Shown here piece by piece: positions 8,225 through 13,649 of a DNA stretch of 35,226 bases; the stretch's first letter is position 1; every line of letters starts with the position of its first letter. The notes under the pieces are model-generated. The model did no database searches, was not told the origin of the DNA, and saw nothing but the letters and a program-made list of their open reading frames with translations. The stretch lies in the NCBI GenBank assembly GCA_026003935.1, contig BPIE01000003.1, forward strand, positions 1-35,226, in the 5' to 3' direction. A program made the translations under genes and the position numbers. Source of the DNA: Tepidiforma sp. (lineage in GTDB: Bacteria; Chloroflexota; Dehalococcoidia; Tepidiformales; Tepidiformaceae).

Positions 8225-9175
8225 ATGGGGATTTCGCCGGGAACGGAGGGTGCGCGGGAGCTGCCCCGGCGGTTGCCGAGTCCGGGGTTGGGCACGCTGC
8301 AGTACTGGAGCTGGCGGGCGGCGCGGGCGACGATCGGCCGGACGCCGGCGCCTGCGGCGTACCGGATCGCCGGGGGGCTCGGCGCTGCGGCGTACTGGCT
8401 CTGGCCGCGGGGCCGCCGGGCGATGCGGGCGAATTTCGCCCGGGTCCTGGGGACGGCCGAACAGGGGTTGGTCGACCGGGTGGGGCGCGCGTCGCTTGCG
8501 GCGTACTTCCGCTACCTGCTGGACTTCATGCGGCTGGGGAGCGGCAGGGCGCAGCTGCCGCGGGTGGATGGCGATGGGGCGTTCGCGGCGCTCGACCGGC
8601 TGCTGGCGCGGGGACGCGGCGCGGTGATTGTGTGCATGCATTATGGCAACTGGGATGCCGGGGCTGCCTACGCGGCATCGCGCGGCTATCCGCTCGCGGT
8701 CGTCGCGGAGGGATTCGGCGACCCGCGGCTAGATGCGCTGGTGCTAGGAACCCGGGAGCGGCTGGGGATGCAGGTCATCCGGATGGAGCGCGCGGGGCCA
8801 TCGATGGTGCGCGTGTTAAAGCGGAACGGGCTGCTCGCTCTCCTCATCGACCGGCCCGTGCCGGGGGAGGGGGTCGAGGTGGAGTTTTTCGGCGAGGCAG
8901 TGCAGGTGCCGGCCGGGCCGGCCCGCCTGGCGCTTGCAACCGGTGCAGCCCTCGTGCCCGTGGCGTTCCGGAGGGTCGACCCCCTGGGCGAGCGGATGGA
9001 GGTCGTCGGCGACTTCTCGATCGTCCCCTGCGATGATGCGCGGCCGGAGTGCGTCCAGGTGCTGACGCAGCGGGTGATGCGGGCGCACGAGGCGTTCATC
9101 CGGGAGCGGCCCGAGCAGTGGTATATGTTCCGGGAGCTGTGGCGGGGGCCGGCGGACCGCCGGGGCGGAATATGA
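8225..9175 (+). CDS. LpxL/HtrB (PatA-like) lysophospholipid acyltransferase 1
   Basis: This 316-residue protein belongs to the LpxL/HtrB acyltransferase family. The catalytic HX4D motif is H139-Y-G-N-W-D144, with downstream RPVPGEGVEVEFFG and PAGPARLALATGAALVPV blocks that shape the acyl-donor site. In Gram-negatives the family acylates lipid A. In mycobacteria the homologue PatA acylates phosphatidylinositol mannosides. No lipid A genes are seen here, while a PimA-like glycosyltransferase and a CDP-alcohol phosphotransferase lie downstream, so a PatA-like role is the better inference. The ATG at 8225 is preferred to the GTG at 8159 because the longer form would run back through the divergent promoter and into the enoyl-CoA hydratase gene. 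It is the first gene of a five-gene overlapping operon. Confidence 0.82.
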   Translation: MGISPGTEGARELPRRLPSPGLGTLQYWSWRAARATIGRTPAPAAYRIAGGLGAAAYWLWPRGRRAMRANFARVLGTAEQGLVDRVGRASLAAYFRYLLDFMRLGSGRAQLPRVDGDGAFAALDRLLARGRGAVIVCMHYGNWDAGAAYAASRGYPLAVVAEGFGDPRLDALVLGTRERLGMQVIRMERAGPSMVRVLKRNGLLALLIDRPVPGEGVEVEFFGEAVQVPAGPARLALATGAALVPVAFRRVDPLGERMEVVGDFSIVPCDDARPECVQVLTQRVMRAHEAFIRERPEQWYMFRELWRGPADRRGGI

Positions 9176-10047
9176 GCGCGCAGGCGTGGGCGATGCGGGC
9201 AGCGCGTCTCGTGGCTGGCCGGCGGCCGGGGCCGTTCTATGCGGTGGCCCCGGCGGTTGCGCGGGTGACGTGGTGGCTGAATCCGCGGGTGCGTCGGCGT
9301 CTGACCCGGAACATGCTGCCGCTCTGCGAGGGTGACCGCTCGCGCGCACGGCGGGAGGGGCTCCGGGCGCTGCAGCATGTCCTGGAGTACTACCTCGACC
9401 TCGTGACGCTCCCCGGGCGGGATATGTCGCGGTTCGAGGCGGAGCACCTGGAGATTTTCCACGTCGAGCGGCTCGAGCTGCTGCGGACGAACGGCGCGGT
9501 GCTGCTGGTGAGCGCCCACACGGGCAATGCGGAGCTGGCGATCCAGGCGTTGACGTACCGCGGGCGGTCGTTTGTGGCGCTGGTCGAGCGGCTGGAACCG
9601 CGGGACTGGGCGGAGTACATGCTGAAGCTGCGCTCCTCGGCGGGGGGCACCTTTCTCGAGACAAACTTCGGCGGCGTTCGGACGTGCATCGAAACGCTGC
9701 GCGCGGGAGGGGTCGTGGGGATGATGGGCGACCGGGACATCCAGCACACGGGGGTGTGCACGCGGCTGTTCGACCGGCCGGTGCGGCTGCCGCGTGGGCC
9801 GTGGGAGCTGGCGCGCCGGACCGGGGCGCTGGTGATTCCGATCTTTTCGAGCCGGAAGCGAGGTGACCAGTTCCGGATCGATGTCGAAGAGCCGTTCAGG
9901 GTCGAGGAGACGGAGGACGCGGATGGCGATATCCGAGCCGCGGTGGAGCGGTTTGCGGGGCTGCTGGAGCGGCACCTGCGGCGGGACCCGGGCCAGTGGG
10001 CGGTGCTCGAGGATTTCTGGAGGGTGCACGCCTGTGGGGAAGGCTGA
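9172..10047 (+). CDS. LpxL/HtrB (PatA-like) lysophospholipid acyltransferase 2
   Basis: A second, divergent member of the same family, 291 residues long. The catalytic motif is HX4E (H116-T-G-N-A-E121), where the first copy has HX4D; both forms are known in LpxL-type enzymes. GMMGDRDIQHTG and LPRGPWELARRTGALVIPIF correspond to the conserved downstream blocks, and the C-terminal PGQWAVLEDFW matches the usual QWYMF/W ending. The start ATG overlaps the previous stop as ATGA, which fixes it and implies translational coupling. Two neighbouring acyltransferases would allow two successive acylations of one glycolipid, as seen for tri- and tetra-acylated PIMs; this is inference. Confidence 0.82.
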   Translation: MSAQAWAMRAARLVAGRRPGPFYAVAPAVARVTWWLNPRVRRRLTRNMLPLCEGDRSRARREGLRALQHVLEYYLDLVTLPGRDMSRFEAEHLEIFHVERLELLRTNGAVLLVSAHTGNAELAIQALTYRGRSFVALVERLEPRDWAEYMLKLRSSAGGTFLETNFGGVRTCIETLRAGGVVGMMGDRDIQHTGVCTRLFDRPVRLPRGPWELARRTGALVIPIFSSRKRGDQFRIDVEEPFRVEETEDADGDIRAAVERFAGLLERHLRRDPGQWAVLEDFWRVHACGEG

Positions 10048-10756
10048 CCTCCACCTCCACACGCGCGTGAGCGACGGCTTCGCGACGGTCGAGGAGCTGC
10101 TCGAGTGGGTGGAGCATGCCACGGACCTCGACGTCATCGCGGTGACGGACCACGAGGACGTCCGCGGCGGCCTGCGGGCGCGCGAGCTGGCCGCCCGGCG
10201 GAGCTACCGGTTCGACGTCATCCCGGGTGCGGAGATTACGACGCTGCAGGGGCACGTGCTGGCGCTCTTCGTGGAGCGGGACCTGCCGAGCTTCCGGGGG
10301 GTAGAATCGACGCTCGCGATGATCCATGACGCCGGCGGCATCGCCATCGCGCCGCACCCGCTGAGCTGGCTGACGCGGTCGGTCGGCCGGCGGACGCTCG
10401 ACGGCCTCCGGGAGCGGGCTGAGGCGGGCGTGCAGTTCGATGCCATCGAGCTGGCGAACCCGAGCCCGGCGGGCGTGCGGACGGGAGCGAAGGCTGCACG
10501 GCTGAATGCGGAGCTGTGGCGTTTGCCGGCGACGGGGAGTTCGGATGCGCACCACCTCGAGCATGTGGGCAGCGGCTGGACTGAGTTCCCGGGCCGGACG
10601 GCGGCCGAGCTGCGGCAGGCGATCGCCGACGGGACAACGCGGGCGGCAATGCGCCACCCGTCAGCGGTGCCGGCGGGCCGGCTGGCGCTCGGGCTGGCGT
10701 GGGGCTACACGGCAACTCCGCGCAAGGTGGTGCGGATGCTGGGAGGCCGGCGGTGA
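10034..10756 (+). CDS. PHP-domain metallo-phosphoesterase
   Basis: This 240-residue protein is a PHP-domain phosphoesterase. All metal-binding motifs are present: DLHLHTRVSDG (H7, H9, D14), VTDHEDV (about 37-43), PGAEITT (E67), APHP and SSDAHH near the C-terminus. Relatives include nucleotide and histidinol phosphatases, the YciV/RNase AM group and polymerase-linked domains; the substrate here is unknown. The GTG at 10034 is chosen because the family motif starts four residues later and upstream sequence in this frame is non-coding-like; it overlaps the preceding gene by 14 bp. Its position between the acyltransferases and the PimA-like gene suggests a dephosphorylation step in the same lipid pathway, for example on phosphatidylinositol phosphate; that is a hypothesis only. 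Confidence 0.82.
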   Translation: MGKADLHLHTRVSDGFATVEELLEWVEHATDLDVIAVTDHEDVRGGLRARELAARRSYRFDVIPGAEITTLQGHVLALFVERDLPSFRGVESTLAMIHDAGGIAIAPHPLSWLTRSVGRRTLDGLRERAEAGVQFDAIELANPSPAGVRTGAKAARLNAELWRLPATGSSDAHHLEHVGSGWTEFPGRTAAELRQAIADGTTRAAMRHPSAVPAGRLALGLAWGYTATPRKVVRMLGGRR

Positions 10757-11907
10757 AAATCGCGCTTGTCAGCCCGTATGACTGGTGCGTCGAGGGCGGG
10801 GTGAAGACGCATATCCGCCACCTTGCGGCGTCGTTCCGGGCATGGGGCCACGAGGTGGTGATCTTCGCGCCGGCGTCGGACGCGGAGCGGGTGAGGGACG
10901 AGGTTCACGTGATGGGGCGGCCGTTTTCGATGCGGGTAAGCGGGTCGGTTGCGCGGATTACATTCGCCTGGAAGTCGCCGGAGGTGAAACGGGTGCTGCA
11001 GGAGCACCGTTTCGATGTGGTCCACCTGCACGAGCCGCTGATGCCGCTGCTGCCGTACCACTTCCTGCGATATTCACAGGCGGTGACGGTGGGGACGTTC
11101 CATGCAGCCAAGGACGGCGGGAACCGATTCTACGGGTACACTACGCCGCTCACGCGGCGATGGTTCCGGAAAATCGAGGGGAAGATCGCGGTTTCGCCGG
11201 CGGCGGCGAAGCTGGTAAGCCGGTACTTCCCGGGGTACTTCAACATCATCCCGAACGGGATCGATTACGAGCACTTCGCCGGGCCGGCGGAACCGTTCCC
11301 GGAGTTTATGGACGGCCGGAAGAACATCCTGTTCGTGGGACGGCCGGAAAAGCGGAAGGGGCTCAAGTATCTCCTGAAGGCGTACCTGCGCATCCGGCAG
11401 CAGGAGCCGAACACGCGATTGATTGTTGTTGGCGCGGGCGATTTTTCGCGGTACGAGCGGGTCATGGCGCCGTTCCCCGACGTGGTGTTCCGTCCGAACG
11501 TGCCGTACGCGGACCTGCCCCGCTACCACAAGAGCTCGACGGTCTTTTGTGCGCCGAACACGGGGAACGAGAGCCAGGGGTATGTGCTGCTGGAGGCGCT
11601 GGCGGCCGGCGACGCGGTGGTGGCGAGCAATATCGAGGGGTTCGCCGGGGTGATGACGAACGAGGTCGAGGGGCTGCTGGTGCGCCCGAAAGACCCGGAT
11701 GCCATCGCGGAGGCGGTGATCCGGCTGCTGCGGAACCCGACGCTGCGGGAGACGTTCGGCGCACGGGGCCGGGAGCTGGCCCGGCACTACAGCTGGGACA
11801 ACGTCGCGCACCGGGTGATGTCGTACTACGAACGGCTGCTCTACGAGCGGCAGCAGGTAGCGGAGACGCGGGCGCGGCGGGCTGCGCTGGCCGGGTCGGG
11901 CCGCTGA
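10753..11907 (+). CDS. PimA-like GT4 glycosyltransferase
   Basis: This 384-residue GT-B glycosyltransferase of family GT4 resembles phosphatidylinositol mannosyltransferase PimA in length and block order. The N-terminal domain has VSPYDWCVEGGVKTHIRHLA, GHEVVIFAPAS, SGSVARITF and VVHLHEPLMP, where the glycine-rich loop and HEP segment match the PimA acceptor side. The C-terminal domain has NILFVGRPEKRKG, a CAPNTGNESQGYVLLEAL block containing the EX7E nucleotide-sugar motif, and GDAVVASNIEGF. PimA moves mannose from GDP-mannose to phosphatidylinositol at the inner membrane face. Other GT4 lipid glycosyltransferases share these features, so the sugar and acceptor are inferred. The GTG overlaps the preceding stop as GTGA. 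Confidence 0.82.
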   Translation: MKIALVSPYDWCVEGGVKTHIRHLAASFRAWGHEVVIFAPASDAERVRDEVHVMGRPFSMRVSGSVARITFAWKSPEVKRVLQEHRFDVVHLHEPLMPLLPYHFLRYSQAVTVGTFHAAKDGGNRFYGYTTPLTRRWFRKIEGKIAVSPAAAKLVSRYFPGYFNIIPNGIDYEHFAGPAEPFPEFMDGRKNILFVGRPEKRKGLKYLLKAYLRIRQQEPNTRLIVVGAGDFSRYERVMAPFPDVVFRPNVPYADLPRYHKSSTVFCAPNTGNESQGYVLLEALAAGDAVVASNIEGFAGVMTNEVEGLLVRPKDPDAIAEAVIRLLRNPTLRETFGARGRELARHYSWDNVAHRVMSYYERLLYERQQVAETRARRAALAGSGR

Positions 11908-12497
11908 TGGGCGTGACGCTGCTGCCGACGCGGCTGCCGAAGGGCGTGCAGGATGCGATCGGCCGCTCGGTCGGCGGGCTCGGGATTACCCCGAACATGA
12001 TTTCGCTCGCGGGCGCCGGGGGGAACGTCGCTGCGGCGGTGCTGGTGGCGCGTGGGCAGCTCCTGCCTGCGGGGCTCGTGTACCTGCTGTTTTCGGCGCT
12101 GGACCTGGTTGACGGGGCGGTCGCGCGGGCGACAGGGAAGGCGAGTCCGTTCGGGGCGGTCTTCGATGCGGTGCTCGACCGGGCGAGCGAGGCGATCGTG
12201 CTGGCCGCCTGCGCGTGGTACTTCGCGGAGCGCGGCGAGCAGTGGCAGACAGCGGCCTGCTTTGCGGCGCTCCTCGGCAGCGTATCGGTGAGCTACCTGC
12301 GGGCGCGGGCCGAGGTGGCAGGCGTACCCATGCGGGAAGGGCTGTTCCGCCGGCAGGAGCGGGTGGCCGTGCTCGGAGTGGGGCTGGTGCTCGGCTGGCT
12401 GACGGCGGCGATGGCCGTGCTGGCGGTGCTTTCGAACCTGACGGCGATCCAGCGGGCCTGGATGCTGGCGCAGGCGCTCCGGGACGAGCGCGGCTGA
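11907..12497 (+). CDS. CDP-alcohol phosphatidyltransferase (PgsA1/PIP-synthase-like)
   Basis: This 196-residue integral membrane enzyme has the full CDP-alcohol phosphotransferase signature DLVDGAVAR-x8-G-x3-D-x3-D (GAVFDAVLD), which binds the divalent metals and the CDP headgroup. Five or six hydrophobic helices follow. The later SYLRARAEVAG segment resembles the block found in actinobacterial phosphatidylinositol-phosphate synthases. The family joins CDP-diacylglycerol to glycerol phosphate, inositol phosphate or related alcohols. Adjacency to a PimA-like gene and acyltransferases favours the inositol phosphate type, as in the mycobacterial pgsA1-patA-pimA order. The ATG overlaps the glycosyltransferase stop as TGATG. 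The gene ends the lipid operon, 44 bp before prfB. Confidence 0.83.
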   Translation: MGVTLLPTRLPKGVQDAIGRSVGGLGITPNMISLAGAGGNVAAAVLVARGQLLPAGLVYLLFSALDLVDGAVARATGKASPFGAVFDAVLDRASEAIVLAACAWYFAERGEQWQTAACFAALLGSVSVSYLRARAEVAGVPMREGLFRRQERVAVLGVGLVLGWLTAAMAVLAVLSNLTAIQRAWMLAQALRDERG

Positions 12498-12541
12498 GCG
12501 GCCGGCTCGATCGTCGCGGGGCGGCGTGCGAGGATGGAGCC

Positions 12542-13649
12542 ATGAACGAACTGCAGGCGCGCGCGCGCGAGCTTTCGGACCGGATCTCTGACCTCCTGGT
12601 GCGTCTTTGACCTCGCCAGGGATGAAGCTCGCGTAGCAGAACTCGAACAGCAGACCCTCGCACCCGGCTTTTGGGACGATGCAGCGACTGCGCGGAAGGT
12701 GATGCAGGAGCTGGCCGCCCGGCGTGAGCGCGTCGAAACGTGGCGCGGGCTGGAGCGGCGCGCCCGCGAGGCGGGTGAGCTGCTCGAGATGGCGGCAGCG
12801 GAGGACGACGAGCAGACGGCCGAGGAGGTGCGGAAGGAGCTCGACGCCATCGAGGACGAGCTGCGGCGGCTCGAGTTCCAGCTGCAGCTCTCGGGGCCGT
12901 ACGACATGCGGAACGCCATCCTGGCGGTACACGCCGGCGCCGGCGGGACAGATTCGCAGGACTGGGCCGAGATGCTGCTGCGGATGTACCTGCGCTGGGC
13001 CGAGCGGAAGGGGTTCGAGACCGAGATTCTCGACCTGACCGAGGGCGAGGAGGCGGGCATCAAGAGCGCGACGGTGGAGGTACGCGGGCCGTACGCCTAC
13101 GGGTACCTCAAGAGCGAGCGCGGGGTCCACCGGCTGGTGCGGCTTTCGCCGTTCAACTCAGCGGCGACGCGGCAGACCAGCTTTGCGAAGGTGGAGGTGA
13201 TGCCGGAGGTGGACGAGGTCGGCGAGATCGAGATCGACCCCGACGACCTGAAGATCGACGTGTTCCGCTCGAGCGGGGCCGGCGGCCAGAACGTGCAGAA
13301 GAACTCGACGGCGGTACGCATCACGCATATCCCGACGGGGATTGTGGTGACGTGCCAGAACGAGCGGTCGCAGGCGCAGAACAAGGAGAGCGCCATGAAG
13401 GTGCTCGAGGCACGGCTGCTGGAGCTGGAGCTGAACCGGCAAGAAGAAGAAAAGGCGCGGCTGAAGGGCGAGCACGTTGACGTTTCGTTCGGGAGCCAGG
13501 TCCGCAATTACGTGCTCCACCCGTATAAGCTGGTGAAGGACCTGCGGACGGGGTACGAAACGACGGACACGACAGCCGTTCTCGATGGCGAAATCGACCC
13601 GTTCATCGAGGCGTATCTGCGGGCGCAGGTCGGGCAGGAGGAGTCATGA
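12542..13649 (+). CDS. prfB: Peptide chain release factor 2, programmed +1 frameshift
   Basis: RF2 recognises UGA and UAA stop codons and triggers hydrolysis of peptidyl-tRNA. It is read in two frames: 12542-12607 encodes 22 residues and meets an in-frame TGA at 12608-12610. A +1 slip at CTT-TGA continues at GAC (12609) for 346 more residues, giving 368 in total, close to the usual size of about 365. Upstream of the slip, GGTG can pair with the 16S anti-Shine-Dalgarno, a weaker stimulator than the classic AGGGGG. Release-factor hallmarks are SPF (in RLSPFNSAATRQTSF), which reads the stop codon, and GGQ (in SSGAGGQNVQKN), which acts in the peptidyl transferase centre. The next gene overlaps as ATGA. 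The slip is autoregulatory: low RF2 favours frameshifting. Confidence 0.96.
12605..12611 (+). promoter_or_regulatory. RF2 autoregulatory frameshift site (CTT TGA C)
   Basis: The slippery CTT codon is followed by the in-frame stop TGA and a C, the poor-termination context that is conserved in prfB genes. Coding continuity resumes exactly one base on. Confidence 0.93.

Follow-up and report, generated by a model that had tools for sequence, protein, structure and literature searches.

Phosphatidylinositol (PI)-mannosides (PIMs) are best known from mycobacteria and their kin. Bacterial inositol lipids as a whole were believed to be confined for the most part to Actinobacteria and Spirochaetes (PMC9246714). 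The early PIM operon of mycobacteria and Corynebacterineae contains Rv2612c (pgsA), Rv2611c (an acyltransferase gene) and Rv2610c (pimA), that is, the genes for PI phosphate (PIP) synthase, PatA and PimA (PMC3229680), and in Bacteroides thetaiotaomicron the genes for an inositol-phosphate synthase, a PIP synthase and a PIP phosphatase are likewise clustered (BT_1522–BT_1526) (PMC9246714). The three mycobacterial enzyme types recur in the stretch of DNA analysed here, referred to as the window: 35,226 nucleotides of contig BPIE01000003.1, from a metagenome-assembled genome (MAG) of Tepidiforma sp., a bacterium of hot springs. At positions 8225–12497 of its plus strand lie five genes of the same direction, every one overlapping its neighbour. 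An earlier note on this DNA, made from the letters alone, had pointed to the mycobacterial clustering of pgsA1, patA and pimA, which the Rv2612c–Rv2611c–Rv2610c operon bears out, and had read the five genes as a PIM-like pathway in an apparently Chloroflexota host, a phylum in which NCBI indeed places Tepidiforma. Our analysis supports this reading, and neither of the two outcomes that the note held capable of overturning it, those of the synthase search and of the trees, did so. We put the probability that the operon makes an acylated PIM, as predicted from the sequences, at roughly 0.8. Its genes are as follows.

8225–9175, plus strand: acyltransferase 1 (A1), predicted PatA-type PI-mannoside acyltransferase (PF03279, best solved match PatA, tree)
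9172–10047, plus strand: acyltransferase 2 (A2), paralogous LpxL/PatA-fold acyltransferase (PF03279, separate side of the tree)
10034–10756, plus strand: PHP-fold phosphoesterase, GTG start (PHP_C, conserved residues, predicted fold)
10753–11907, plus strand: predicted PimA-type GT4 mannosyltransferase, GTG start (best solved match PimA, tree)
11907–12497, plus strand: predicted PIP synthase-type CDP-alcohol phosphotransferase, PgsA1-like (NF045883, solved matches, tree, arginines)

The earlier note had placed these genes correctly to the base in coordinates, strands and overlaps; the latter amount to 4, 14, 4 and 1 bases in the order A1/A2/PHP/GT4/phosphotransferase, and all five open reading frames have a start codon and one stop, at the end only. 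Its family calls agree with the Pfam matches, which are PF03279 for A1 and A2 (E 2e-35 and 1e-25), PHP_C for the PHP gene (E 3.9e-13, the PHP model itself staying below its cut-off), the GT4 domains (E 8e-32) and PF01066 for the phosphotransferase (E 1e-12). All five proteins are 100% identical, after rounding, in a single-contig congener (G005), and the GT4 protein is 92% identical to that of T. flava and 99% identical, over a partial 180 residues, to that of a Tepidiforma MAG.

The phosphotransferase can be assigned to the PIP synthase type, a predicted activity supported by its relatives and its residues. The best solved matches are the PIP synthases of M. tuberculosis and M. kansasii (E 7e-19), and TIGR00560, the model of phosphatidylglycerol phosphate (PGP) synthase, does not match the protein at E 0.001. 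It scores 123 bits as a PIP synthase versus 64 bits against the model of IPCT/DIPPS (inositol-1-phosphate cytidylyltransferase plus di-myo-inositol-phosphate phosphate synthase), and 98.8 bits against the BT_1523 model, which has a cut-off of 350. In a tree of 34 rows (22 operon-type enzymes, four from the second copy discussed below, three solved PIP synthases and five of PGP synthase type), the five PGP-synthase-type rows are separated at 100/100 from all the others, and the window's enzyme sits outside their clade. The four aspartates are retained, as are R94, R155 and R195, which structural work has linked to inositol phosphate (PMC6506517, PMC4634129). These three arginines, together with S132, Y133 and R152, are present in 22/22 operon-type rows, and the three are found in 0/5 PGP-synthase-type rows. 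The earlier label of a PgsA1-like enzyme is upheld by this grouping with PIP synthases; of the inositol- or glycerol-based head group that the note allowed, the inositol version gains from the tree, the arginines and the linkage to ino1, and the glycerol version is disfavoured.

The GT4 enzyme has PimA as its best solved match (E 6e-54), the next enzyme type following at E 4e-16. A tree of 22 rows was built from M. smegmatis PimA, 16 operon GT4s (the window's and 15 others) and five additional GT4s of the family, including two MshA-like ones; PimA and the 16 operon enzymes group with support of 97/99, apart from the other five, on a PimA branch that is long enough to make its exact position unsure. 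Both results agree with the earlier description of a PimA-like GT4 and support a PimA-type assignment, from which donor and acceptor are predicted. The two acyltransferases, which the note had placed together as LpxL/PatA-type enzymes, share the fold family and the best solved match, PatA (E 4e-27 for A1 and 1.5e-14 for A2), and A2 proves to be a separate lineage: in a tree of 26 rows A1 and PatA are split from A2 at 96/96. Three rows that do not belong to the window's class or come from unplaced Chloroflexota (L230, L245 and L056) likewise fall on the A2 side, so that A2 is an old separate lineage and not a recent duplicate. Relative to PatA, whose residue roles are taken from PMC4792965, A1 retains H126, D131, E149 and R164, with E200 replaced by D and H284 by Y; H126 is present in 25/25 Chloroflexota rows, as is an acidic residue at 200 (Asp in the window's A1, Glu in PatA), and the catalytic H and D are retained on the A2 side. 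We regard the predicted PatA-type activity of A1 as supported and propose A2 as a second acylation enzyme.

The supply of inositol-3-phosphate ties the operon to inositol in many relatives. Among 61 genomes, PF01658 matches in 52 (34/36 of the better ones) and PF07994 in 21, and no genome carries both of the two synthase kinds that these models distinguish. The Ino1 type, defined as a PF01658 match without a PF07994 match, occurs in 34 genomes, and in 31 of them its gene lies at most 7 kb upstream of a CDP-alcohol gene on the same strand; in the remaining three, ino1 adjoins GT4 (G042), adjoins A1-A2-PHP-GT4 (G052) or has no operon gene near it in the stretch read (G053). The second kind, which matches PF07994, is found in 21 genomes, one scanned example having an extra N-terminal domain. 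Eighteen of these also have a PF01658 place, which lies within 10 kb of a same-contig CDP-alcohol gene in 0/18, although in 11 of the 18 the synthase contig has no CDP-alcohol match and no distance can be defined. One genome with the second kind, G026, carries what seems to be an internally deleted ino1 remnant just upstream of A1 (L073, 5777–5941): 13–16 residues of the start (weak alone, E 0.003–0.02) and the last 35–37 residues (E 3e-13) are left and the middle is gone, so that ino1 was probably once part of the operon in this lineage and was later replaced. An apparent lack of the synthase in the genus g13, which PF07994 had returned, was rejected given the 52/61 genomes found with PF01658; PF07994 has a blind spot, with no match in C. 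glutamicum. In G005, a synthase gene with an extra N-terminal domain (L064, 8945–10465; NCBIfam 'carph-isopro') lies in a region that also has an MshA-like GT4 gene and, by eye, a cysteine-synthase-like gene, which may point to a thiol or to some other glycoside of inositol.

The pairing of GT4 and phosphotransferase is kept at 28 of 30 loci (30 genomes, the window's own included) and is not due to chance on that count; in the two exceptions, G022 and G027, the PHP gene adjoins the phosphotransferase. Around this pair the cluster varies in size within the window's class, from a minimal core of ino1, GT4 and PIP synthase genes (G049, G040, G044, G050), through the core with one acyltransferase (G038, G041) or with an acyltransferase and PHP (G047, G043, G039), to the full ino1-A1-A2-PHP-GT4-PIP synthase arrangement (G017, G006, G037, G054, G058, G059). 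Outside the class, 20 regions were picked by hand; a PIP synthase match set the position of 19, and some are cut by contig or region ends. All 19 have the CDP-alcohol match, 13 a PimA-like GT4 and eight the combination of ino1, GT4 and phosphotransferase; the phosphotransferase stands alone in six. A putative PIM-type operon is common in the class and recurrent in other Chloroflexota. In G020, the GT4 gene is followed by one for a protein that matches the phosphotransferase only in part, at 38% (L188, 5588–6112); it has no usual CDP-alcohol motif in the part read and may be a decayed copy. A plasmid search with the phosphotransferase returned five matches, weak and scattered.

We hypothesize that the pathway starts with inositol-3-phosphate, made by a synthase that is encoded elsewhere in Tepidiforma and within the operon in many relatives, as gene linkage suggests. 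The CDP-alcohol enzyme would join it to CDP-diacylglycerol to form PIP, judging from kinship and residue conservation, and the PHP enzyme, in a conjectural third step, may remove the extra phosphate to yield PI. The PimA-type GT4 is then predicted, from kinship and residues, to transfer a single mannose, with GDP-mannose as the probable donor, and so to form PIM1, and A1, on the same kind of evidence, to acylate that mannose. Finally, A2 might attach another acyl chain, with the inositol or the mannose as a possible site. The expected end product would be a monomannoside with one or two such acyl chains. Every reaction is a prediction from gene content, kinship, residues and linkage, and this applies to the roles of PHP and A2 above all.

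Several observations weigh against this pathway or parts of it. Two curated models are missed: the phosphotransferase stays below the cut-off of NF045883 (PIPSynth; cut-off 170) and A1 reaches 171.9 bits against NF005919 (PI-mannoside acyltransferase; cut-off 209), and because of these scores both are counted as kin, not members, of the two equivalogs. The first cut-off seems to exclude the Chloroflexota branch, since it is passed by 0/151 genomes of a phylum survey (18 from the window's class, including the window's own) in which the best PIPSynth match has E <=1e-28 in 145/151. The survey alone is no proof of PIP synthase, since 13/14 control genomes match PIPSynth at E 1e-3 too, one of them above the cut-off. 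The position of K135, a partial-effect residue of PIP synthase in structural work (PMC6506517, PMC4634129), is R in 20/22 operon-type rows, the window among them, and that of P153 is Q in the window's enzyme. Neither PF01658 nor PF07994 finds an inositol-3-phosphate synthase in the window's MAG, so that the check proposed in the earlier note fails for this genome itself and succeeds for the genus (5/5 other genomes) and for the many relatives in which ino1 leads the operon; the conclusion that the MAG has no inositol was rejected, given those congeners and a completeness of 72.55% (1.6 Mb, in a genus otherwise of 2.5–2.8 Mb). Counting this MAG, six of the 61 genomes match neither model, among them G021 and G030, which are about 95% complete, and two Ino1-type examples score 534 and 546 bits against TIGR03450, the model of inositol-3-phosphate synthase, below its cut-off of 638. 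The synthase product could, moreover, also feed the MshA-like enzyme and an IPCT/DIPPS-like pair. At the G022 and G027 loci, the only place where it was sought there, GT4 is gone from between PHP and PIP synthase. PimB' was not identified: G005 has six GT4 matches, two of the five non-operon ones were compared with solved structures, and neither is nearest to PimB', for which reason the pathway may end at the monomannoside. The second PIM acylation enzyme, unidentified as of 2022, has been speculated to be periplasmic and not PatA-like (PMC9490103), which speaks against A2 as its counterpart. Lastly, the paper that describes mannose in hydrolysates of whole T. flava and T. thermophila cells, in itself a point in favour, contains the words 'inositol' and 'lipid' zero times in its main text (PMC10284905).

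Part of this list would fit a different chemistry: a phosphotransferase with PGP synthase activity, or with another polyol phosphate as its substrate, and a GT4 and acyltransferases that assemble a glycosylated lipid on a glycerol base. Phosphatidylglycerol is common in bacteria, Tepidiforma offers no PGP synthase candidate other than its second CDP-alcohol enzyme, and the missed PIPSynth cut-off and the lack of a synthase match in the window's MAG point the same way. However, the 100/100 split from PGP synthases, the retained inositol-phosphate arginines, the absence of a TIGR00560 match and the proximity of ino1 in 31/34 genomes all contradict a glycerol-based product, which we consider very improbable. 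An operon that makes PI and mannosyl-PI while both acyltransferases work elsewhere, for instance in general phosphatidic acid synthesis, is unlikely as well, if less remote: the PatA fold resembles that of glycerol-3-phosphate acyltransferase (PMC4792965), the four minimal clusters have no acyltransferase, and one of their genomes, G049, has no match to PF01553 (PlsC family). Against this stand the grouping of A1 with PatA, the presence of A1 or A2 relatives beside the PimA-type gene in clusters of the class and of other classes, and PF01553 matches in 9/10 genomes searched, two Tepidiforma among these, so that A1 and A2 need not serve that purpose. An acylated PIM is the product that best accommodates these data.

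For the PHP protein the balance is closer. Its fold is sure: the His, Asp and Glu positions are conserved in an alignment of 26, the AlphaFold model has a pLDDT of 92.9, and Foldseek gives TM0559 and RNase AM as best matches, with no single substrate indicated. We propose it, from gene linkage, as a candidate PIP-to-PI phosphatase, an activity whose mycobacterial enzyme was yet unidentified in 2019 (PMC6506517). The gene overlaps its operon neighbours, occurs in such clusters across several families of both class and phylum, and remains beside PIP synthase in G022 and G027, although GT4 has left the operon there. The odds are nonetheless even that the protein has a different activity (nuclease, nucleotidase or lipid phosphodiesterase) and that its gene accompanies the operon. 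Among its nearest solved folds are RNase AM and a structure with AMP and phosphate, and the PIP phosphatase of Bacteroides is PgpA-like, not PHP (PMC9246714). Also to be set against the proposed role, G023 has no PHP gene between A2 and GT4 and the minimal clusters have none, so that PHP cannot be a universal PIP phosphatase. In G011, a 45% PHP relative is encoded on a different contig.

The CDP-alcohol enzymes also bear on head groups more broadly. Each of five Tepidiforma genomes has two (PF01066), and the 1.5 Mb single-contig G049 has one. CDP-diacylglycerol synthase is present in 8/8 genomes searched. TIGR00560 exceeds its cut-off in only 2/61 genomes (G043 and G050; G045 narrowly misses it) and in 0/8 of a smaller set, and the TIGR00560 and PF01066 searches reveal no recognisable PGP synthase in Tepidiforma. 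The second CDP-alcohol gene directly follows a nucleotidyltransferase gene (L063, 8668–9989, in G005; likewise L066 and L077), and in G005 both proteins match the IPCT/DIPPS model, the best model of the CDP-alcohol enzyme being archaetidylinositol phosphate synthase (108 bits versus 94 for IPCT/DIPPS). The four second-copy rows retain the inositol-phosphate arginines, one row ending before R195. A role of this gene as PGP synthase was rejected on its nucleotidyltransferase context, IPCT/DIPPS match and arginines; its features suggest a solute of the di-myo-inositol-phosphate type or some other use of CDP-inositol, and the enzyme may have a role in lipids. With no recognisable PGP synthase, inositol is maybe the only head group attached by CDP-alcohol enzymes in Tepidiforma, and these enzymes, taken by themselves, suggest that it is the main phospholipid head group, which would point to bacteria with mainly inositol-lipid membranes. 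One can go further and suppose that Chloroflexota own a possibly ancient PIM system, that in Tepidiforma and much of its class inositol is the sole CDP-alcohol head group, phosphatidylglycerol is absent and (mannosylated) PI is the bulk phospholipid, and that PHP is the PIP phosphatase missing in mycobacteria and A2 a second PIM acyltransferase. We offer this wider picture tentatively, with the odds somewhat against it.

A few observations concern the genomes and the surroundings of the operon. On its 5' side the operon is flanked by a minus-strand gene for an enoyl-CoA hydratase (Pfam), and 3' of the operon, at 12540–12720, a prfB-type gene has an in-frame TGA after CTT that resembles a programmed frameshift, as is known for the release factor 2 gene. 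The window's MAG contains the operon in three versions, of which those on contigs C4 (L075) and C5 (L076) are 82–93% like the window's, and a fourth contig carries an identical copy of PHP (G000:C6, 584–1303); because of these copies the MAG probably mixes strains or species. In the complete genome of T. flava, the phosphotransferase gene is split over two frames (L043, 9158–9725), by a sequencing error or a real break.

Diol-based phosphoinositides with mannose have reportedly been described by chemical means in Thermomicrobia; if so, mannosylated, acylated inositol phospholipids are not without precedent in Chloroflexota, and the novelty lies in the genes. Among the matches listed from the open-licence literature, there was no report of PI-mannosides in Chloroflexota and no paper linking genes to lipids of the Thermomicrobia type in this phylum. 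In Dictyobacter halimunensis, which also belongs to the Chloroflexota, PI is a major component of the polar lipids (PMC12453558). Compared with described systems, the operon shares with IPCT/DIPPS a CDP-alcohol phosphotransferase of related type with inositol phosphate as its substrate, and Tepidiforma has such a pair elsewhere, at L063; in contrast, the operon enzyme adjoins a PimA-type gene and has no nucleotidyltransferase beside it. The B. thetaiotaomicron cluster differs in its PgpA-family phosphatase and in a pathway that continues to inositol sphingolipid, and PimA or PatA are not named for it in the available part of that paper (PMC9246714). The types of Rv2614c, Rv2613c and Rv2609c, described for the mycobacterial operon (PMC3229680), are not among the five Tepidiforma genes. 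The Tepidiforma order is patA-A2-PHP-pimA-PIP synthase, with a second acyltransferase and a PHP gene added and with ino1 leading the operon in many relatives. These additions offer candidates for two open enzymes, the PIP-to-PI phosphatase (PMC6506517) and a further PIM acyltransferase (PMC9490103). The recurrence of the same enzyme types in Chloroflexota would alter the evolutionary picture of PI-mannosides, and the operon itself, as its predicted functions stand, is well supported as a variant of the known pathway that extends beyond the genus to many Chloroflexota.

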